From assembly GCF_014132355.1 (NCBI RefSeq), contig NZ_BLZO01000047.1, positions 1-51,573 of the forward strand: a stretch of DNA of 51,573 nt, given 5' to 3'. Made by a program: the position numbers and the translations under genes. The DNA comes from Okeania sp. KiyG1 (GTDB lineage Bacteria > Cyanobacteriota > Cyanobacteriia > Cyanobacteriales > Microcoleaceae). Every line of letters begins with the position of its first letter. Within the stretch, counting starts at the first letter, position 1. The notes under the pieces are model-generated. The model had not been told where the DNA came from. It worked only from the letters and a program-made list of their open reading frames with translations, and did not search any database. Shown one piece after another: positions 804 to 29,436 of the stretch.

Positions 804-849
804 CATCTGATGACAGGGATGTACCCATGACAAGGGACGTTTAAGAGAG

Positions 850-925
850 GAGCCGTGTGAGGTGAAAGTCTCACGCACGGTTCTGAAGACGAGTCGGTTT
901 GGTAACAAACTGGCTTAGTTTAACA
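850..925 (+). ncRNA. Group II intron domain V and VI, 3' end of the first intron
   Basis: Positions 850-883 form a textbook 34-nt domain V: GAGCCGTGTG at the 5' side with the AGC triad, a GAAA loop, and CGCACGGTTC at the 3' side. Domain VI follows: a stem around a GTAA tetraloop (about 893-915), then the TTAGTTTAAC tail. The intron ends at about 924-925. It lies directly downstream of the decayed maturase, so it is the 3' end of that intron. The next bases, GTGCGACTCG from 926, look like the 5' end of another intron. An alternative domain VI pairing uses ACGAGTCG with CGACTCGT at 929-936, which would move the 3' end slightly. Confidence 0.85.
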
Positions 926-1865
926 GTGCGACTCGTTAGGTCGAAACCGCTTTAAAGCGGGGGATGACCTGGGTTGATTTTTTATATCGACTACAACTGT
1001 AGAGAGTTTCTAGGTTTAAGTCCTAGCATCGAGATGTTCGATTGAATCCATTATCCCCATTAAGGAGAGTGGCGCTCGAATTAGTGAAGCGGGATAAAAA
1101 GCAGGTAATATAGCAGAAGTCAGAAGTCAGTAGGGGCGTTAACGGTAGTTATGCGAAGCAAACGGCCGTTCGCCCGTACAGAAGTTAAACTCTTGCTGTG
1201 ACTAAATTTGAGAGGAGCGAGAATGTCCTAATAGTAATGGCGACTGCTATAACTAACCTATCTAAGTTAAATCCCTGCAAGGGAGGTCGAAAGGGTTAAC
1301 ATTCGTGAACTGATGATTGGAAGCGTCGTTAGTCCAAGATAGAGATACGATAGGTCAAGTCTCTATCGAAATATAGCAATAGACAGATAGGACACGGACT
1401 TATGGGGATAATTATCTTTAGACAGGGAAATGTTTTTCCAACTGTTCCCTGTTCCCTGTTCCCTGCTATAGGAATGAGAATCAGAGATTTTCCTCTTTCT
1501 GATTAACATCCTTCTCTTACCGATAAGAGCATTCCTCGGCGTATAGTCAGAACCCAACCCGACCAGACAAAACCTCTACGGAACGAAGTAACTTCAATAC
1601 GGTTCTCTATTGAGTAGGCAGCCAAGCTATAAACCTGATTGAGGAAGGATGATGTCAAAAGCCAATGTCTGGAGTAATTCCCAGGATATGCAGACGGACA
1701 TCCCTAAGTCTAGAGAGTAGAGCGCGACCTGAACTGGTCGTCTGAAATGGGAGGCCCAACTCCTCTGGTGATTTTCTCCACCAGCCGCCGTGTGATGGGA
1801 AACTGTCACGCACGGTTCTTAGGGGAGCACAGAGAAGTGACTCTCGAACCTTACCCGATAACTAA
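926..1865 (+). ncRNA. Putative ORF-less group II intron directly abutting the previous one
   Basis: It begins with GTGCGACTCG, matching the GUGYG start of bacterial group IIB introns, then an AGGTC/GACCT stem enclosing CCGCTTTAAAGCGG, as expected for domain I. A second domain V-like hairpin lies at 1785-1818, with the expected GGAA-type loop and CACGCACGGTTC 3' strand. The 5' strand reads CCGCCGTGTG instead of GAGCCGTGTG, so the AGC triad is altered or displaced. No RT gene lies between the ends. The domain region carries two inserted repeats: one with GGGGCG and GCCGTTCGCCC arms near 1130-1185, and a TTCCCTG-rich one near 1430-1475. The 3' boundary is approximate. Confidence 0.6.
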
Positions 1866-2170
1866 TACCGTTTCACGGAAGTCATGCATCGAGTGTGTAA
1901 TTCTGAGGTCTCCTCAGAATGTAAGACACACTCAAGACAGTTATAGCGCTGTGCGCAGGCAACAGCTCCGGAAAGCAACAGCTCATCTGGGGAATAAAAA
2001 ACCGATATTATAAGGCTTTTAGCTATTGGACATCTCTTGTAATTTGTAAATATGCCAGCGCACATTGCTATAAAAGTCAAAAGTCATGCATTATGATTTT
2101 ATAAGCTCAAAACAAGGAGCGAAACTATTTGTGACATCTTTAAAGTGAATTGGTATAAGTAGGAGGCAAA
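1866..2170 (+). ncRNA. RNA leader of the maturase-encoding intron (5' part missing)
   Basis: About 300 bases lie between the second intron's 3' end and the maturase start codon. No open reading frame with recognisable sequence is present. The stretch ends in a shine-dalgarno-like TAGGAGGC six bases before ATG at 2171. Domains I-III normally need some 500-600 bases before the ORF, so this intron is either 5'-truncated or its first half lies to the left, split by the two introns above (twintron arrangement). The second reading is an inference. Confidence 0.5.
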
Positions 2171-3571
2171 ATGACCAATACGAGTGAAACAACTACGGTG
2201 GAAATGAAATGGAGTGATATTAACTGGAAATCGGTTAATAGAGCAGTATTTCGCCTTCAGAAAAGAATCTACAAAGCGTCGCTAAATGGTGATACCAAAA
2301 CTGTCAGGAAATTACAGAAGTTACTGGTAAAGTCTAAATCAGCTAAATTACTCGCAGTCAGTAAAGTAATACAGGATAATAGGGGTAAAAATACTCCAGG
2401 AATGGATGGGATAGCTAAAATAGCCCAAAAAATTCAACTGGATGGCAAAGCTAAATCTGTTCGCAGGATTGAAATTCCTCAGTCAAGCAAACAGGAGAAA
2501 AGACCATTAGGAATACCCACAATGGAAGACTGGGCTAAACAGTCATTAGCTAAAATAGCTCTAGAACCAGAATGGGAAGCAAAGTTTGAAGATAATTCTT
2601 ATGGTTTTAGACCGGGAAGATGTGCTAAAGATGCGATCGCAGCTATCTATAGTGACATCAAAAGAACGAGTTACTATGTTCTAAATGCTGAAATAGAACA
2701 GTGCTTTGACCAAAGAAGATTATTGGATAAACTCAATACTTATCCAGCTATGCGCCATCAAATTAAGGTATGGCTCAAAGCAGGGGTAATGGAAAAAGAT
2801 GTCTTCTACAAAACCGAAAATGGAATTCCAAAAGGTGGTGTAATTTCTCCGTTATTAGCGAACATAGCTTTACATGGAATGCAGGAGGTATTACAAGAGG
2901 AATTTTCCGAGAAATATACCACCTATGGGATACAACCTGATATCAATTTCAATCCACCTCTATTCCACAGATATGCGGATAATTTTGTCATCTTACACGA
3001 AAGCAAAAAGGTGATAGAAAAATGCCAAGAAATTATCAATGACTGGTTGGAAAATATGGGTCTAAAACTAAAAGACTCAACAACAAGAATTGCTCACACT
3101 CTAGGAGATGGAAAAGTTCAGACAGGATTTGACTATCTAGGGTTTAATGTCAGGCAATATTCAGTCAAAGATATAAATAGTGCAACGGATGGAAATGGTA
3201 ACAAACTAGGGTTTAAAACTCTCATAAAACCTGCGAAGGAAGCTATCAAACGCCATACCAGGGTCTTAAAACATACAATCCGACTGTATCGCAATGCACC
3301 GCAAGAGAAATTAATAGAAATGCTAACACCTAAAATTAGGGAGTGGTGCAATTATTATGACTCTGTGGTAAGTTCAAGAGTCTTCGCAAAGATGGATAAT
3401 ATCTTATACCATCAACTTCTCAGATGGGGATACTATCGTACACCCATGCAGGGTAAAAAGCATACGGTAAACAAATATTGGGGAGTTGATAAGGGAAAAG
3501 GATGGAAATTCATCACACCAGACGGGAAAGTATTGCGAAACCATAAGGAGAGTAGGGGAGTAGGGGAGTAG
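2171..3571 (+). CDS. Group II intron maturase with substituted RT active site
   Basis: The 466-residue protein contains RT motifs, thumb and maturase X domain. Visible blocks are NTPGMDGI (RT0/1), RRIEIPQSSKQEKRPLGIPT (RT2), SYGFRPGR, GIPKGGVISPLLANIALHGM (RT4), and LTPKIREWCNYYDSVVSSRV (domain X). Two polymerase motifs are abnormal. Motif A reads LNAEIEQCFD, with E174 where the catalytic Asp is expected. The YADD box reads YADN (268-271). The RT is therefore probably inactive for retrohoming, while the splicing part looks intact. The usual C-terminal HNH domain is gone: after KVLRNHKE the frame runs into a GGGGAGTA minisatellite and stops. RBS GGAGG lies just upstream. It may act as a splicing-only maturase for this intron cluster. 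Confidence 0.85.
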   Translation: MTNTSETTTVEMKWSDINWKSVNRAVFRLQKRIYKASLNGDTKTVRKLQKLLVKSKSAKLLAVSKVIQDNRGKNTPGMDGIAKIAQKIQLDGKAKSVRRIEIPQSSKQEKRPLGIPTMEDWAKQSLAKIALEPEWEAKFEDNSYGFRPGRCAKDAIAAIYSDIKRTSYYVLNAEIEQCFDQRRLLDKLNTYPAMRHQIKVWLKAGVMEKDVFYKTENGIPKGGVISPLLANIALHGMQEVLQEEFSEKYTTYGIQPDINFNPPLFHRYADNFVILHESKKVIEKCQEIINDWLENMGLKLKDSTTRIAHTLGDGKVQTGFDYLGFNVRQYSVKDINSATDGNGNKLGFKTLIKPAKEAIKRHTRVLKHTIRLYRNAPQEKLIEMLTPKIREWCNYYDSVVSSRVFAKMDNILYHQLLRWGYYRTPMQGKKHTVNKYWGVDKGKGWKFITPDGKVLRNHKESRGVGE

Positions 3572-3690
3572 GGGAGTGGGGGAGTGGGGGAGCGAGGGAG
3601 TGGGGAGTAGGGAGTGGGGGAGTAGGGAGTAGGGATATTGAAGTAATTATAGAATTATAAACATATATTATATAACCGGATTCTATATGA
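3541..3690. repeat. GGGGAGTA minisatellite plus inverted-repeat element cutting the maturase gene
   Basis: A run of GGGGAGTAGGGGAGTGGG-type units (about 3549-3632) is followed by a segment with GATATTGAAGTAATTATAGA and ATAACCGGATTCTAT. The same segment occurs in the opposite orientation at 7484-7596, so this is an interspersed element. It sits exactly where the maturase reading frame leaves its family sequence. Confidence 0.75.
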
Positions 3691-4061
3691 TTACACAATA
3701 GAAAATGCGTCTTTCTTGTGTGAACAATATTTTCCCAGTGAAGACAAGCTGGAAATAGACCATATAATTCCCTACAGCAAGTGAGGTAAAGTTATAAGAC
3801 TATTTATTAGTATATTCCCTGTTCCCTGTTCCCAGCTCCGGTGTTCCCTGTTCCCTAGAGCAATAAAACTTTGTACCTCATCAACCTGATAACTGCTGTA
3901 ATATTTTCCCAGTGAAGAAAATCTGGAAATAGACCATATAATTCTCCAATATTTAGGGGGTAAAAACAATATGGCTAACAAAAAATTCCTGCACAATTAC
4001 TGCCATCATCAGAAAATTTTTCAAGATGGTAGTCGCGATCGCAAGTCAAACTAGCTAGGAG
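3691..4061 (+). pseudogene. HNH nuclease remnant of the intron protein, split by a small inverted-repeat insertion
   Basis: Positions about 3700-3775 can be read as part of an HNH domain (LEIDHIIPYS). A second copy of the same segment, TTTTCCCAGTGAAG through GACCATATAATTC, appears at about 3899-3945 and then continues into HNYCHHQ and the domain end. The element between the copies (about 3781-3877) has the ends GTGAGGTAAAGTT and AACTTTGTACCTCA, so it looks like a MITE flanked by a roughly 45-bp duplication of the gene. The fragment was the C-terminal domain of the maturase at 2171-3571. Confidence 0.65.
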
Positions 4062-4140
4062 GAGCTGAATGAAGGGGAACTTTCATGTTCGGTTCTGAAG
4101 GAGAGTTTGGGATAGCGATATCTCATTCGACTCTAACAAA
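4062..4140 (+). ncRNA. Group II intron domain V/VI and 3' splice boundary next to the dam exon
   Basis: Positions 4062-4095 form a 34-nt domain V: GAGCTGAATG paired with CATGTTCGGTTC, AGC triad present, GGAA-like loop. Domain VI follows as GAGT...GGATA around a GCGA tetraloop, closing with ACTC and the tail TAACA. The intron therefore ends at about 4136-4138, and the next codons read AGA CAA TTG TTG CCT, the start of the methyltransferase exon. This is the 3' end of the intron that carries the maturase at 2171. Confidence 0.85.
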
Positions 4141-4943
4141 GACAATTGTTGCCTGAGTTAATCAAATATATTGATGAAAAATCCCTAAAAAACATACCTA
4201 TTATGAACCTTTTATTGGAGGTGGAGCGCTTTTATTTGAGTTACAACCAACTAGGGCAGTTATTAATGATAAAAATCTGGAATTAATTAACTGTTACGAA
4301 GTAGTTAGAGATTCATTGGATGATTTAATTGTGGAGTTAAAAAACATCAAGAAAAAATAGTCCAGATTATTATTATGAAGTAAGAAATTTAGACCGTATG
4401 TCTAAATATAAAAATCTGTCAGCAGTAGAAAGGGCGGCTAGGATTATTTATTTGAATAAAACTTGTTACAACGGTTTATTTAGAGTAAATTCTCAAGGTC
4501 AATTCAATGTTCCTTTTGGTAGATACAAAAAACCTAATATTTTAGATGAAGATGTTTTAAAAGCTGTTAGTAAATATTTAAACAAACCTCAAGTAAAACT
4601 ATTAAATCTGGATTTTGCGGAGGCTGTTAAGAAGGCAAAAAAAGGTGATTTTCTCTATTTCGATCCACCTTATGATCCGGTTTCTGATACAGCATCTTTT
4701 ACTGGATATGATGCTAATGGTTTTAACCGGAATCAACAGGAAAGATTGAAGGAAGTTGTTGATGATTTAACACAGAGAGGTTGCCGAGTTATGTTGAGTA
4801 ATTCTCAGACTGATTTTATTATGGATTTATATCAAGATTATCAGGATAAAATTCATATAGTTAAGGCAGCACGAAATATCAATTCTAAAGGTTTGAAAAG
4901 AGGTAAAGTTAATGAAATTATAGTTTTAAATTTTTCAGTGTAG
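4137..4943 (+). pseudogene. dam: D12-class DNA adenine methyltransferase, 3' exon, frameshifted
   Basis: The product transfers a methyl group from SAM to the N6 of adenine in DNA. This exon starts at the residues that normally follow the FxGxK-type KWAGGK element (RQLLPELIKYID), then shows the SAM-binding YEPFIGGGALLF and the catalytic DPPY in FLYFDPPYDP (about 4650). The C-terminal end (NINSKGLKRGKVNEIIVLNF) is typical of Dam-like enzymes. The frame is 4143, then shifts near 4195, near 4340 and near 4352, each at an A-rich stretch and each compatible with one missing base; from about 4365 to the TAG it is open. The 5' exon would lie beyond the intron pile-up, outside the window. It is a solitary methyltransferase: no restriction enzyme gene is nearby. 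Confidence 0.85.
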
Positions 4944-9752: not shown

Positions 9753-10932
9753 CTATATTATTTAATATCCCAATTTTTATATACTTTACTGGTATTCTAG
9801 CACTACAATGTTGCCCATTAGGGTTTGCTGAAAAAGTCTATTAGTAGGGGTAGGAGACGCGGGGACGCGGGGATGCGTGGACGCTGAGACACGGGGACGG
9901 AGGCTTTTGGTTTCTGATTAAAAGTGGCGTTGCACAGTGACGAGTGATTTGAGATTTTTGATGAACAGGATTTTGGATTAATCAATTGCTAGAATTATTA
10001 ATTAATGTTTTTTTAGTCAAAGTCTAAACCATTTTTTTTGCAGTGTCATTCTATAGTGTGCAACCACTTAAAAGTTGACTTTTCACTATTTTAGTCAGAG
10101 TAAAAAAACACTTATTGACTGAAAAGTAGGCAAGTTTTGGTAATTTTTTCTATCCTCCTATCTCCTAATCTTTTTTCGACTACAAAAAGGCACTTTTTTT
10201 TATGGTTAAGTGCTTTGAGATTTAATTAGCAGAACAATAATTAATACAGTATATATCCTCCGATAAAATTATTTTATTAATAAGTTTTATCGTCAGCATT
10301 CAGCCGTCAGCTATTAGCTAGCCTCCTATGGTCGGAACTGCGTTAACAGCTATTAATTTTGGGAAAGGTAAAAAACCTTTGAAATTGAGGAAAGAATAAA
10401 AAGTTACTATCATGCGTCTCCTTCCACAACCTGGGAAGTAGTTATTCATTATTAATTGCTGATAGCTGACTGCTAATAGCTGAATGCTTATGTTTTATCT
10501 AATTGGGTTATACCATTTTAAAAAAGAATATTACGAATAATAAGTACCATAAAAAGACTTTTAGATAAAATTTGTTTCACTAAAAGGTGATTTGCAACAT
10601 CAAAAATGGTATTAAATCTATTCCATTCTGGGTTCTAAGTTCTTAATTATAAGAAATGCCCTAACTATTTGTAGCAAATATTTATCAATTTGTATTAATT
10701 CCAACATTTGATGTTAAATAATAGTTGTATGAATCACTAATAAATGGCAATTCATTAATGGATAATTGATAATTTATAATTGATAGTTACCTCGGGTTTT
10801 AAACGCTACGGAATTGAATATAAGGATATATTATTTCTTTTCTTGGTCGATTATCAGCTTTGATCAGGGGGTTTAAATGAATATGGGTTGTTTGAGGCAG
10901 CTTTGATAGTTAAGTATAAATTCTGCTTGAAA
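9753..10932. other. Gene-free stretch with decayed mobile-repeat ends
   Basis: No coding sequence was found. Contents: a CATTAGGGTTTGCTGAAAAA end of the GCTTGCTGATTAA family (9817); GACGCGGGGA minisatellite (9855-9890); a segment with inverted GTCAGCATTCAGCCGTCAGC and GCTGACTGCTAATAGC ends (10294-10491); a MITE of the ATACCAATTTG family in reverse (10509-10696); and a partial copy of the spacer (about 10750-10932) that separates blocks in the following array. Confidence 0.65.
10509..10696. repeat. MITE-like element, ATACCAATTTG family (copy 2, reverse)
   Basis: Starts TATACCATTTTAAAAAAGAA with ATTACGAATA and ends ATTTGTAGCAAATATTTATC then AATTTGTAT. It is the reverse-complement arrangement of the copy at 5238-5427, and even shares the core words GTGATTTGCAACA and AAAAATGGTATTAA. 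Confidence 0.75.
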
Positions 10933-11702
10933 ATGAATCCTGACTGGGTGGAAATATCTTAAAACTATAACGTTTGAGTTTTCTGATCAGAGTTTCTTAC
11001 ATTTTGTGAGCCTCCAACTATTGAGGGTGGAGGGAAGATTGATTCCTACTCACTTACCTCTACCTCCTGTTTTTTGAGGCCCACACAATGATTCCTGACT
11101 GGGTGGAAATATCTTAAACTATAACGTTTGAGTTTTTTGATCAGAGTTTCTTACATTTTGTGAGCCTCCAACTATTGAGGGTGGAGGGAAGATTGATTCC
11201 TACTCACTTACCTCTACCTCCTGTTTTTGGAAGCCCACACAATGATTCCTGACTGGGTGGAAATATCTTAAACTATAACGTTTGAGTTTTTTGATCAGAG
11301 TTTCTTACATTTTGTGAGCTTCCAACTATTGAGGGTGGAGGGAAGATTGATTCCTACTCACTTACCTCTACCTCCTGTTTTTGGAAACCCACACAATGAT
11401 TCCTGACTGGGTGGAAATATCTTAAACTATAACGTTTGAGTTTTTTGATCAGAGTTTCTTACATTTTGTGAGCCTCCAACTATTGAGGGTGGAGGGAAGA
11501 TTGATTCCTACTCACTTACCTCCACCTCCTGTTTTTGGTGGCCCGCACAATGAATCCTGACTGGGTGAAAATATCTGAAACTATAACGTTTGAGTTTTCT
11601 GATGAGAGTTTCTTACATTTTGTGAGTCTCCAACTATTGAGGGTGGAGGGAAGATTGATTCCTACTCACTTACCTCTACCTCCTGTTTTTGGAGGCCCGC
11701 AC

Positions 11703-11902
11703 AATGATTCCTGACTGGTTAGTTTGATTAATTGATAATTGATAATTGATAATTGATAGTTAGCTCTGGTTAAAATCGAGAGGATTGAATATAAGGATAT
11801 ATTATTTTTTTTCTTGGTCGATTATCAGCTTTGATCAGGGGGTTTAAATGAATATGGGTTGTTTGAGCCAGCTTTGATAGTTAAGTATAAATTCTGCCTG
11901 AA
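11703..11902. repeat. Higher-order spacer of the 154-bp array (copy 1)
   Basis: The spacer is 200 bp. It contains three to four TTGATAATTGA units, TAGCTCTGGTTAAAATCGAG, ATATAAGGATATATTATT, TTGATCAGGGGGTTTAAATG and AATATGGGTTGTTTGAGCCA. It is nearly identical to the spacers at 12212-12410 and 12720-12918, and partly present at 10750-10932 before unit 1. Confidence 0.9.
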
Positions 11903-12211
11903 AATGATTCCTGACTGGGTGAAAATATCTTAAAACTATAACGTTTGAGTTTTCTGATCAGAGCTTTTTACATTTTGTGAGCCTCCAACTATTGAGGGTG
12001 GAGGGAAGATTGATTCCTACTCACTTACCTCCACCTCCTGTTTTTGGAGGCCCACACAATGAATCCTGACTGGGTGAAAATATCTGAAACTATAACGTTT
12101 GAGTTTTCTGATGAGAGGTTCTTACATTTTGTGAGCTTCCAACTATTGAGGGTGGAGGGAAGATTGATTCCTACTCACTTACCTCTACCTCCTGTTTTTG
12201 GAGACCCACAC

Positions 12212-12410
12212 AATGATTCCTGACTGGTTAGTTTGATTAATTGATAATTGATAATTGATAATTGATAGTTAGCTCTGGTTAAAATCGAGAGGATTGAATA
12301 TAAGGATATATTATTTTTTTCTTGGTCGATTATCAGCTTTGATCAGGGGGTTTAAATGAATATGGGTTGTTTGAGCCAGCTTTGATAGTTAAGTATAAAT
12401 TCTGCTTGAA
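12212..12410. repeat. Higher-order spacer of the 154-bp array (copy 2)
   Basis: The spacer is 199 bp and almost identical to 11703-11902 and 12720-12918. Together with the two units that follow, it makes a roughly 508-bp block, duplicated in tandem at 11703, 12212 and 12720. Confidence 0.9.
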
Positions 12411-12719
12411 AATGAATCCTGACTGGGTGGAAATATCTTAAAACTATAACGTTTGAGTTTTCTGATCAGAGTTTCTTACATTTTGTGAGCCTCCAACTAT
12501 TGAGGGTGGAGGGAAGATTGATTCCTACTCACTTACCTCTACCTCCTGTTTTTGGTGGCCCGCACAATGAATCCTGACTGGGTGAAAATATCTGAAACTA
12601 TAACGTTTGAGTTTTCTGATGAGAGGTTCTTACATTTTGTGAGCTTCCAACTATTGAGGGTGGAGGGAAGATTGATTCCTACTCACTTACCTCTACCTCC
12701 TGTTTTTGGAGGCCCACAC

Positions 12720-12918
12720 AATGATTCCTGACTGGTTAGTTTGATTAATTGATAATTGATAATTGATAATTGATAGTTAGCTCTGGTTAAAATCGAGAGG
12801 ATTGAATATAAGGATATATTATTTTTTTCTTGGTCGATTATCAGCTTTGATCAGGGGGTTTAAATGAATATGGGTTGTTTGAGCCAGCTTTGATAGTTAA
12901 GTATAAATTCTGCTTGAA
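12720..12918. repeat. Higher-order spacer of the 154-bp array (copy 3)
   Basis: Third near-identical spacer; the block after it holds three 154-bp units instead of two. Confidence 0.9.
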
Positions 12919-13603
12919 AATGAATCCTGACTGGGTGGAAATATCTTAAAACTATAACGTTTGAGTTTTCTGATCAGAGTTTCTTACATTTTGTGAGCCT
13001 CCAACTATTGAGGGTGGAGGGAAGATTGATTCCTACTCACTTACCTCTACCTCCTGTTTTTGGAGGCCCGCACAATGAATCCTGACTGGGTGAAAATATC
13101 TGAAACTATAACGTTTGAGTTTTCTGATGAGAGGTTCTTACATTTTGTGAGTTTCCAACTATTGAGGGTGGAGGGAAGATTGATTCCTACTCACTTACCT
13201 CCACCTCCTGTTTTTGGAGGCCCACACAATGATTCCTGACTGGGTGGAAATATCTGAAACTATAACCTTTGAGTTTTCTGATCAGAGTTTTTCACATTTT
13301 GTGAGCCTCCAACTATTGAGGGTGGAGGGAAGATTGATTCCTACTCACTTACCTCTACCTCCTGTTTTTGGAGGCTCACACAATGAATTATGACTGGTTA
13401 CAGTCCAAAATCCTAGATTTTTGAACTGGAATTACCTAAAAGCTGGTACTTCCTTAGTACCTGTAAAGGCTGAAACCTTTGCCAGTAAGCACTTTGAAAT
13501 TTAATCAGCAAACCCTACTGGACAGTCAGTTGTCCTTAACGTACGTTTTCGTTCGGTTACTACCGATCGCCCGTAAATATTCAATCATCTAAACCATACC
13601 TTC

Positions 13604-13641
13604 AAAAAAAACGGTTACATCTCTCAGGGTAAATGTAACCG
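13604..13641 (-). terminator. Rho-independent terminator of the small PEP-CTERM gene
   Basis: On the minus strand CGGTTACAT pairs with ATGTAACCG (9 bp, 12-base loop) and is followed by eight T. It lies 31 bases past the stop codon of the gene at 13672-14223. Confidence 0.85.
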
Positions 13642-13671
13642 ATTTACTCAATATTTTTACTGCAAATTAGT

Positions 13672-19757: not shown

Positions 19758-19900
19758 TTTTATTATAATTTCTAGAAATGTAAAAAATAATTTATTAAAA
19801 GCTTGACAGATTTTTGATTGTTTGATCTCCACCAATCATCGTATCAAAATTTTTTGATTTTCATCAATCATCATATCAAATCAGTAAATTTTCTGCTTTG

Positions 19901-20650
19901 ACAATTAATTTTTCGATTCTTGATTTACTAACAATTTTTCTGTGACTAGAGGAAATTTTGTGAAGAGAGATTTAGAGTCAGATATTTTCATAGTCAGTGG
20001 AAATAAAGTCTGAGTTTCCTTACTCTCTAGGTTTGATGTTCTACTATTGCGTATGTCGCAACAGTGAAATTTTACAATTAATTTTTCGATTCTTGATTTA
20101 CTAACAATTTTTCTGTGACTAGAGGAAATTTTGTGAAGAGAGATAGTCAAATATTTTCTGTCAGTGGAAATAAAGTCTGAGTTTCCTTACTCTCTGGGTT
20201 TGATGTTCTACTATTGCGTATGTCGCAACAGTGAAATTTTACAATTAATTTTTCGATTCTTGATTTACTAACAATTTTTCTGTGACTAGAGGAAATTCTG
20301 AGTAGGGAGGGAGATAGTCAAATATTTTCTGTCAGTGGAAATAAAATCTGAGTTTCCTTACTCTCTAGGTTTGATGTTCTACTATTGTGTATGTCGCAAC
20401 AGTGAAATTTTACAATTAATTTTTCGATTCTTGATTTACTAACAATTTTTCTGTGACTAGAAGAAATTTTGTGAAGAGAGATAGTCAAATATTTTCTGTC
20501 AGTGGAAATAAAGTCTGAGTTTCCTTACTCTCTAGGTTTGATGTTCTACTATTGTGTATGTCGCAACAGTGAAATTTTACAATTAATTTTTCGATTCTTG
20601 ATTTACTAACAATTTTTCTGTGACTAGAAGAAATTCTGGGTAGGGAGAAA
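19901..20650. repeat. Array of about 4.4 repeats of 167-173 bp upstream of the ABC1 kinase gene
   Basis: Units start ACAATTAATTTTTCGATTCT at 19901, 20074, 20241, 20412 and 20579. Each contains TTTACTAACAATTTTTCTGT, GACTAGAGGAAATT, AGTGGAAATAAAGTCTGAGT and TGTGTATGTCGCAACAGTGA. Length differences come from small indels near the GAAGAGAGAT segment. No coding frame is kept across units. The last unit ends 150 bases before the start codon at 20798. Confidence 0.92.
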
Positions 20651-20797
20651 TAGAGTCAAATTCTTACTTTTGACTTTTGACTTTTGACTTTTGATTTTTG
20701 ACTTGAGTTGACTTTTGACTTCAGCAAAGACTTCAGTGAAACGACAGCCATATTGTTACAATGTTTAACAAAAGTAATTAAATTTTTCTAAAATTTT

Positions 20798-28277: not shown

Positions 28278-28287
28278 ATTCAGTTAA

Positions 28288-29436
28288 ATTCAAGACTGTA
28301 TTGAAATATCTCGTATTGATTTTGAATAAATTAATTTTTAAGATCAAACCTCATTAAGAGCGCCATAATAAAAATGTTTTCTCTGATAAATTTATCCCTG
28401 CTTCCTATTACCTATTCCCTATTCCCTATAAATTCAAGACTGTATTAAAATATCTCGTATTTACTTTAGACAATTAGTTTTTAACATCAAACCTCATTAA
28501 TAACGCCATAATAAAAATGTTTTCTCTGATAAATTTATCCCTGCTTCCTATTACCTATTCCCTATTTCCTATAAATTCAAGACTGTATTGAAATATTTCG
28601 TATTGATTTTGAATAAATTAATTTTTAAGATCAAACCTCATCAATAACGCCATAATAAAAATGTTTTCTCTGATAAATTTATCCCTGCTTCCTATTACCT
28701 ATTCCCTATTCCCTATAAATTCAAGACTGTATTGAAATATCTCGTATTTACTTTAGATAATTAGTTTTTAACATCAAACCTCATTAAGAACGCCATAATA
28801 AAAATATTTTCCTCGATAAATTTATCCCTGCTTCCTATTACCTATTCCCTATTCCCTATAAATTCAAGACTGTATTGAAACCCACATTCCGCACTTCAAT
28901 TTGTAACATGAAAATCAGTATAAAATCCGTAGCTTGCTTAGATATTTATACTATATAAATTATCTTCATTTACCTCAATCGAGAGTCAAATTCTCAGATT
29001 ACTTATGGCAGCATAAACACTTACTGAATCCTTGACTCCTATTGACCACTATAATTTACTTCTTATTTCTTATTTCTTACTTCTTACTTCTTACCTCCTT
29101 CTTAATGCATGACTTTTGAATGCATGACTTTTGACTTGTTTTTTATACTACATTTTGTGGTGCGGAATGTGGGTTGAAATATTTCGTATTTACTTTAGAT
29201 AATTAGTTTTTAATATCAAACCTCATTAAGAACGCCATAATAAAAATGTTTTCCCCGATAAATTTATCCCTGCTTCCTATTCCCTATTCCCTATTCCCTA
29301 TAAATTCAAGACTGTATTGAAATATTTCGTATTTACTTTAGATAATTAGTTTTTAATATCAAACCTCATTAAGAACGCCATAATAAAAATGTTTTCCCCG
29401 ATAAATTTATCCCTGCTTCCTATTCCCTATTCCCTA
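28288..29436. repeat. Array of six 143-144-bp repeats, fifth unit interrupted by a MITE
   Basis: Units start AATTCAAGACTGTATTGAAA at 28288, 28431, 28574, 28718, 28861 and 29302. Each holds TATCTCGTATT, CAAACCTCATTAAGAACGCC, ATAATAAAAATGTTTTC, TAAATTTATCCCTGCTTCC and TATTCCC units. The unit from 28861 is split by a 293-bp element at 28881-29173 and resumes after it. Alternating variants (TTGATTTTGAATAAATTAAT versus TTTACTTTAGATAATTAG) suggest dimer-wise duplication for the first four. The array ends four bases before the stop codon of the GGDEF gene on the opposite strand. Confidence 0.93.
28881..29173. mobile_element. MITE with CCCACATTCCGCAC ends inserted in the 143-bp array
   Basis: The 293-bp element has perfect 14-bp ends CCCACATTCCGCAC / GTGCGGAATGTGGG and is flanked by TTGAAA on both sides (28875-28880 and 29174-29179), as a target duplication; the repeat unit around it supports a clean insertion. 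No open frame is inside. A related copy is at 27230-27396. The sharp ends and intact duplication point to a fairly recent move. Confidence 0.88.

Follow-up and report, generated by a model that had tools for sequence, protein, structure and literature searches.

A palindromic core common to dissimilar non-coding tandem arrays of Okeania and related cyanobacteria

The stretch of DNA analysed here (51,573 nucleotides of contig NZ_BLZO01000047.1 from Okeania sp. KiyG1, hereafter the window) carries an array of twelve tandem non-coding units, each of which contains an 18–22 bp palindrome, AAACT-NN-AACGTT-NN-AGTT, that also occurs in tandem arrays built from different units in the same genome and in its relatives. 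This palindrome, which we refer to as the core, was missed in the original prediction. It is the part of the unit that stays, and this suggests a recognised DNA site. We give an even chance to the reading that the array is a non-coding satellite in which the core of each unit is a putative binding site for a dimeric DNA-binding protein and has been kept as such. The distribution of the arrays suggests that units could spread between loci and that arrays could then grow in place by unequal recombination; a dimeric protein would recognise the core, with AAACT-NN-AAC as half-site, and the array would represent a cluster of binding sites that may act in gene regulation, in DNA organisation or in the maintenance of the element itself.

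Tandem Repeats Finder and BLAST located twelve units of 154–155 bp at 10933–13382 (Table 1), confirming the predicted twelve-copy array of 154-bp units, now with three interruptions. From unit 1 to unit 12 the lengths are 155, 154, 154, 154, 154, 155, 154, 155, 154, 155, 154 and 154 bp, and the units are 92.9–99.4% identical in pairwise comparisons. Units 1–5 are contiguous, and spacers of approximately 200 bp precede units 6, 8 and 10; the three spacers share 99–100% identity among themselves and 82.7% with the segment preceding unit 1. One spacer and two units together form a 508-bp higher-order repeat, whose copies are 97.6–99.2% identical. The 154-bp period was reported by Tandem Repeats Finder in four rows (10932–11718, 11903–12227, 12411–12735 and 12919–13397). 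The units had been described as non-coding, which is borne out by a unit length (154) not divisible by 3 and by the ORFs of at least 30 amino acids in 10900–13420, none of which exceeds 59 amino acids. A CRISPR array, with identical repeats and unique spacers, was rejected, given that whole units repeat here and the three spacers are nearly identical; exchange at the core was also rejected, the higher-order repeat ending, as judged by eye, in a TGACTGG stretch outside the core.

Table 1. Positions of the array, its cores and hairpin arms in the window, and the core arrays of the host genome.
Feature	Position	Strand	Remarks
Intergenic segment ahead of the array	10751..10852	+	parts match the same locus in congeners
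Units 1-5	10933..11703	+	starts 10933, 11088, 11242, 11396, 11550; 154-155 bp each
Palindromic core of unit 1 (AACTATAACGTTTGAGTT)	10963..10980	.	pattern scan of the window
Same 18-bp core	11117, 11271, 11425, 11579, 11934, 12088, 12442, 12596, 12950, 13104; 13258		13258 with 1 mismatch
Outer hairpin 5' arm, unit 3 (CATTTTGTGAGCTTCCAA)	11308..11325	+	similar arm in every unit
Outer hairpin 3' arm, unit 3 (TTGGAAACCCACACAATG)	11381..11398	+	overlaps the beginning of unit 4
Spacer 1 of the 508-bp higher-order repeat	11704..11903	+	related to the segment ahead of unit 1
Units 6-7	11904..12212	+	Tandem Repeats Finder, BLAST
Spacer 2	12213..12411	+	spacer comparison
Units 8-9	12412..12720	+	Tandem Repeats Finder, BLAST
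Spacer 3	12721..12919	+	spacer comparison
Units 10-12	12920..13382	+	unit 12 starts at 13229
Host array C38			23 core copies, ~53 bp spacing
Host array C47 (the window)			11 exact core copies
Host array C80			9 core copies, two of these ~1 kb off
Host array C85			7 core copies, ~153 bp spacing
Host array C89			4 core copies, 214-222 bp spacing
Host array C104			7 core copies

The array is flanked by a PP2C phosphatase gene on one side and by genes for a 183-residue protein without Pfam match, an APH-like protein and an alpha-amylase on the other. Tandem repeats account for 58 rows in the window, some of them overlapping. A tandem array of 167-bp period and without core occupies 19897–20661; in 4/5 congeners copies of its unit lie further downstream at this locus, in each of the four as a tandem array; two further arrays of similar-looking 143-bp units lie at 28285–28880 and 29174–29436. 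The region 847–4943 holds three matches to group II intron domain V (847–924, 1783–1859 and 4060–4137), with a reverse transcriptase-maturase ORF at 2171–3571 in their midst. The ORF that follows the maturase matches only positions 99–253 of the D12 adenine methyltransferase profile, and group II introns may split a gene of this type.

In the window, the core has 12 matches at up to 2 mismatches, versus 0.38 expected in shuffles. The host genome (10.98 Mb in 198 contigs) contains 97 oriented matches to AAACTNNAACGTTNNAGTT, corresponding to 70 places, of which 61 are located in six arrays, and no match to its reversed control. Core arrays consist of 4–31 head-to-tail copies, with units ranging from 53 to approximately 220 bp. 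BLAST of one window unit identified two more host arrays that belong to the 154-bp family, on C85 and C116 (two places). The seven C85 units, near a tRNA-Leu gene, are only 74–78% identical to those of the window, and therefore no source of the window array could be seen. Relatives of the 154-bp family are present in 3/5 congeners; in further genomes and elsewhere in G003 the match is restricted to 25–43 bp, repeated in G022 and G035 and found once in G026, and this stretch contains the core. A search for relatives had been proposed at the outset, and it was this search that exposed the core as common to arrays of other unit types. A single host site, on C57, lies inside a 311-residue ORF and may be due to chance.

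Several related elements were recorded alongside. Elements of 87–95 bp with GGACTTACGC inverted ends and a central core occur at L083 3508, L098 937, L099 4905 and elsewhere, and 6/14 such mini-transposon-like elements have no core, two of them (L227 775 and L092 5297) holding another palindrome in that place. The C85 array (L022 3800–5200) is flanked by another palindrome family, AACTATAGTGCTATAG, which has its outer letters in common with the core. In array families of 53 and 118 bp (L088 from 3530, L090 from 3556, L085 at 3251) the core is adjacent to GGGTCAGACCC or GGGTCTGACCC, sequences that resemble the HetR site, AGGGGTCTAACCCCT.

Conservation of the core was scored with units defined by their flanks and with the core masked in the model, in 13 of the 14 arrays tried (L080 has no core window). 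In 9/13 (C85, L049, L048, L078, L079, L074, L052, C38 and the first core of C104) no 18-bp window was less variable than the core, a conservation that is partly ascertained because most loci were retrieved by way of the core, and that includes several orthologous or related arrays. L077 and L076 have 1 and 2 of 144 windows, respectively, that are less variable; this number is 13/126 in the window array, 35/192 in C89 (L089) and 50/84 for the second core of C104, which is poor. Ties are frequent in uniform arrays (25/28 windows in C38, 24/126 in L048), and gene conversion could be an alternative keeper of a uniform core. Insertion of a mobile 20-mer was rejected, as no core-less unit was present in the 12 families searched by their flanks, which comprised the mini-transposon and 11 array types from a set retrieved largely by means of the core; the search recovered point mutants and cases at alignment edges only.

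The two NN steps of the palindrome differ in behaviour between contexts. Among 150 array or other sites, in which sites of the same array are not independent, 115 have no Watson-Crick pair at these positions, 21 have one and 14 have both, versus 39 of the 48 sites with mini-transposon-like flanks in which both are paired (75/273 contexts fall in neither group). In arrays, where NN is mostly unpaired, the core is thus a dyad rather than a stem, its NN positions being free as would be expected of a site for a dimeric protein.

The main rival explanation, because mini-transposon-like elements contain this core too, is that of a selfish palindromic repeat (SDR/MITE-like), in which the core would be the residue of a small mobile palindrome or hairpin mini-transposon of the clade, which would have seeded arrays; these would then have been amplified neutrally and uniformity would arise from copying, with no host protein involved. 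We consider this explanation possible but doubtful. The core is central in 8/14 of the elements with inverted ends, sites flanked by mini-transposon sequence are mostly complementary at NN, and arrays come and go between species, all of which are in its favour; however, array cores are mostly asymmetric at NN, the absence of core-less units in the 12 families means that no core insertion was seen, and in the diverged arrays L079, L074 and L052 the core is less variable than its flanks.

The core is restricted to a clade. A 21-bp core pattern was detected in 10/40 genomes, namely all six of the genus (host included), 3/3 of another genus and 1/1 of a third, with 0/30 in the rest. The core was thus found in all five congeners searched; Okeania SIO2F4 and Hydrocoleum have it as well, but few other members of the phylum do: phylum-wide, AAACTNNAACGTTNNAGTTT occurs in 4/386 genomes (27 places in the host, 3 in G011, 3 in G219 and 1 in G141). 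The reversed control of AAACTNNAACGTTNNAGTTT occurs once each in 11 of the 386 genomes, and a single match therefore means nothing. A scan of named genomes returned, among the matches listed, Hydrocoleum, Trichodesmium, Calothrix NIES-3974 and a Microcoleaceae MAG. Beyond the cyanobacteria, the matches listed include one Pelagicoccus MAG, as well as Allomuricauda/Flagellimonas and a few others with one site each, all of which we take as unrelated. The Pelagicoccus MAG (L105, L113, L121 and others) carries a dispersed perfect palindrome, GCGCAAACAAAACTTCAACGTTGAAGTTTTGTTTGCGC, that contains the core pattern, and in Allomuricauda/Flagellimonas (L097, L108, L117, L122, L130, L134, L169) one core-like palindrome lies near a gene end, seemingly always in the same place, and is perhaps a terminator. 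A phage origin was rejected, the pattern being present in 18 viral contigs at one place each and without an array. Among the papers listed in a literature search, none described the core or core-bearing arrays, and matches to the sequence strings were unrelated by title.

The arrays are also variable in their presence at given loci. Of six Okeania-type genomes, only the host has the window array at this locus: the PP2C-to-amylase genes are present in 5/5 congeners, with no exact core between them in any of the five. Parts of 10751–10852 match one place at this same locus in 4/5 congeners (L242, L244, L245, L246), and 10681–10754 matches it in the fifth (L243). The simplest reading is that the host gained the array, loss in five congeners being the other possibility. 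At the tRNA-Leu locus, an array is present in the host, G001 and G004, and probably in G003, at contig edges, while G002 and G005 have no core there at up to 2 mismatches. An array of approximately 170 bp period lies between genes for proteins of 192 and approximately 425 residues in 5/5 congeners (2–9 exact cores); in L077 this pair matches ADP-ribosyltransferases and FGGY kinases. The host has both genes, with no core between them. Array content therefore changes within the genus, as the tRNA-Leu and 170-bp loci differ between species, and, with the window array and two others present or absent at the same loci across species, these arrays are unstable satellites. The higher-order repeat and this presence/absence pattern in relatives support the recombination-driven satellite that the original prediction had listed as one of its options.

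Another of these options was a protein-binding array for partition or replication. Recurrence of the palindromic core in other unit types supports protein binding indirectly; no partition or replication gene was present among the neighbours scanned. Plasmid or chromosome partition sites or replication iterons (parS- or iteron-like) would account for direct repeats in tandem that carry a palindromic site and for several arrays per genome, but in view of these neighbours, and of array positions that vary between species, we regard this explanation as highly improbable. The neighbouring proteins scanned include no gene class common to the arrays, and no binding protein for the core was found.

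The third option, a multicopy structured RNA, was based on hairpin stems, and these are present. The outer stem, formed by CATTTTGTGAGCCTCCAA with TTGGAGGCYCACACAATG, has 14–17/18 Watson-Crick pairs and 1–3 mismatches in each window unit; unit 12 combines the best outer stem (17/18 Watson-Crick pairs) with the sole core substitution of the array (AACCTT). In this explanation each unit would be transcribed and would fold into a nested hairpin, in a manner similar to NsiR1 of Nostoc. Three window units, folded as 94-nt RNAs, indeed gave z values of -4.15, -5.30 and -7.52 versus dinucleotide shuffles. However, a stable inverted repeat can form its hairpin from both strands, and the minus strand of one window unit also folds well (z = -4.84). 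At other loci, the z values of five units range from -1.21 to -3.95. The claim that changes are concentrated in the stem arms is weakly supported, with 8/19 variable columns in arms that cover 33/155 columns (hypergeometric P = 0.024), but these changes weaken pairs and are without compensation.

A covariance test had been suggested for the units, and covariation was examined here in an alignment of 28 units, 24 of them distinct, taken from six array loci, with 500 shuffles; it was not above that of the shuffles. In the consensus structure 97.6% of cells are paired, well above the 45.6–55.5% obtained when it is slid by 1–3 columns, yet a high share is expected of a structure derived from the same alignment, and 156/500 shuffles were as high. 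Pairs with changes on both sides numbered 2, versus 1.5 in shuffles (reached in 259/500), cells with changes on both sides numbered 3 (reached in 151/500), and the covariation score of 0.121 was reached in 91/500; RNAalifold showed changes on both sides in 2/21 pairs. Arms from the same unit pair no better than re-dealt arms, with 376/450 cells versus 376.9 in shuffles and 1840/2000 shuffles as high (25 rows, L022_5106, L048_5880, L051_115, L023_3753, L049_4705 and L050_4489 having been dropped). For arms in the opposite phase the values were 397/486 cells and 1861/2000 shuffles (27 rows kept, four window rows without left arm dropped).

Rfam gave no match over the array at the gathering threshold, in keeping with the earlier statement that no described family was recognised, and a permissive search returned only mir-627, at 19.9–26.8 bits versus a threshold of 86. 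The region 9753–13671 has 27 promoter-like matches, versus 13.3 in shuffles, which would suit transcription; those within the array are all in the repeated spacers, and none (sigma-70-like) is inside a unit, in a scan that demands T at the last -10 position and cannot count TATAAC. No terminator-like site was found in the array. The array is, in addition, missing at the same locus in five congeners. A structured RNA was rejected as the best reading because covariation does not exceed shuffles, and we consider it improbable.

The hairpin belongs to the 154-bp unit family and is not a feature common to the arrays. In the DNA between cores of 12 arrays (one example each), only the window clearly beats shuffles (z = -3.39 and -2.99); F165 reaches -2.50 on one strand, and the 10 other non-window arrays remain above -2 on both. 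Arms that are symmetric about the core stand out in 4/14 cases (F154, 0/500 shuffles; mini-transposon, 1; F170, 5; F214, 6), weak in F181 (31/500), and not seen in the other nine, including C85 and L048 of the 154-bp family itself. In a tandem array, a favourable hairpin energy does not count as evidence of an RNA gene. Okeania-type genomes are large, and the window alone is rich in tandem repeats; one palindrome common to dissimilar arrays offers a handle for protein pull-down, asking whether such satellites do anything.

Among known systems, NsiR1 of Nostoc sp. PCC 7120 is present as twelve tandem non-coding copies of approximately 60 nt upstream of hetF, each with its own promoter carrying a DIF1 motif (PMC9045159). 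Both are non-coding tandem arrays of a filamentous cyanobacterium and both have twelve copies, whereas the window units are 154 bp long with a palindromic DNA core, contain no promoter-like match in a scan blind to TATAAC, and do not have hetF among the neighbours scanned. Membership in NsiR1 was rejected on this last point.

The small dispersed repeats (SDR) of Nostoc punctiforme are reportedly 21–27 nt long and located inside tandem repeats and mini-transposons. By this definition the core is similar, being 18–22 bp long, dispersed, and present in tandem repeats and mini-transposon-like elements. It differs in occurring in every array unit, in its asymmetry at NN, in its sequence and in its clade; sites with and without the element, the mark of SDR mobility, were not seen in our largely core-fetched pool of 12 families. 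REPs are mostly dispersed singles or pairs of extragenic palindromes. The core resembles REPs and MITEs as a short intergenic palindrome that also occurs in the 87–95-bp inverted-end elements, but differs from REPs in that most host sites are head-to-tail in six arrays. In eukaryotic alpha satellite DNA, the CENP-B box is a short, fixed protein-binding word in units that diverge elsewhere. The core is likewise a fixed word in otherwise diverging tandem units, an analogy of logic only, with a putative bacterial binder; by the same logic it is conceivable, though unlikely, that a protein specific to the clade of Okeania, Hydrocoleum and Trichodesmium-type cyanobacteria recognises the core, and that diverging arrays are kept as interchangeable platforms for it.
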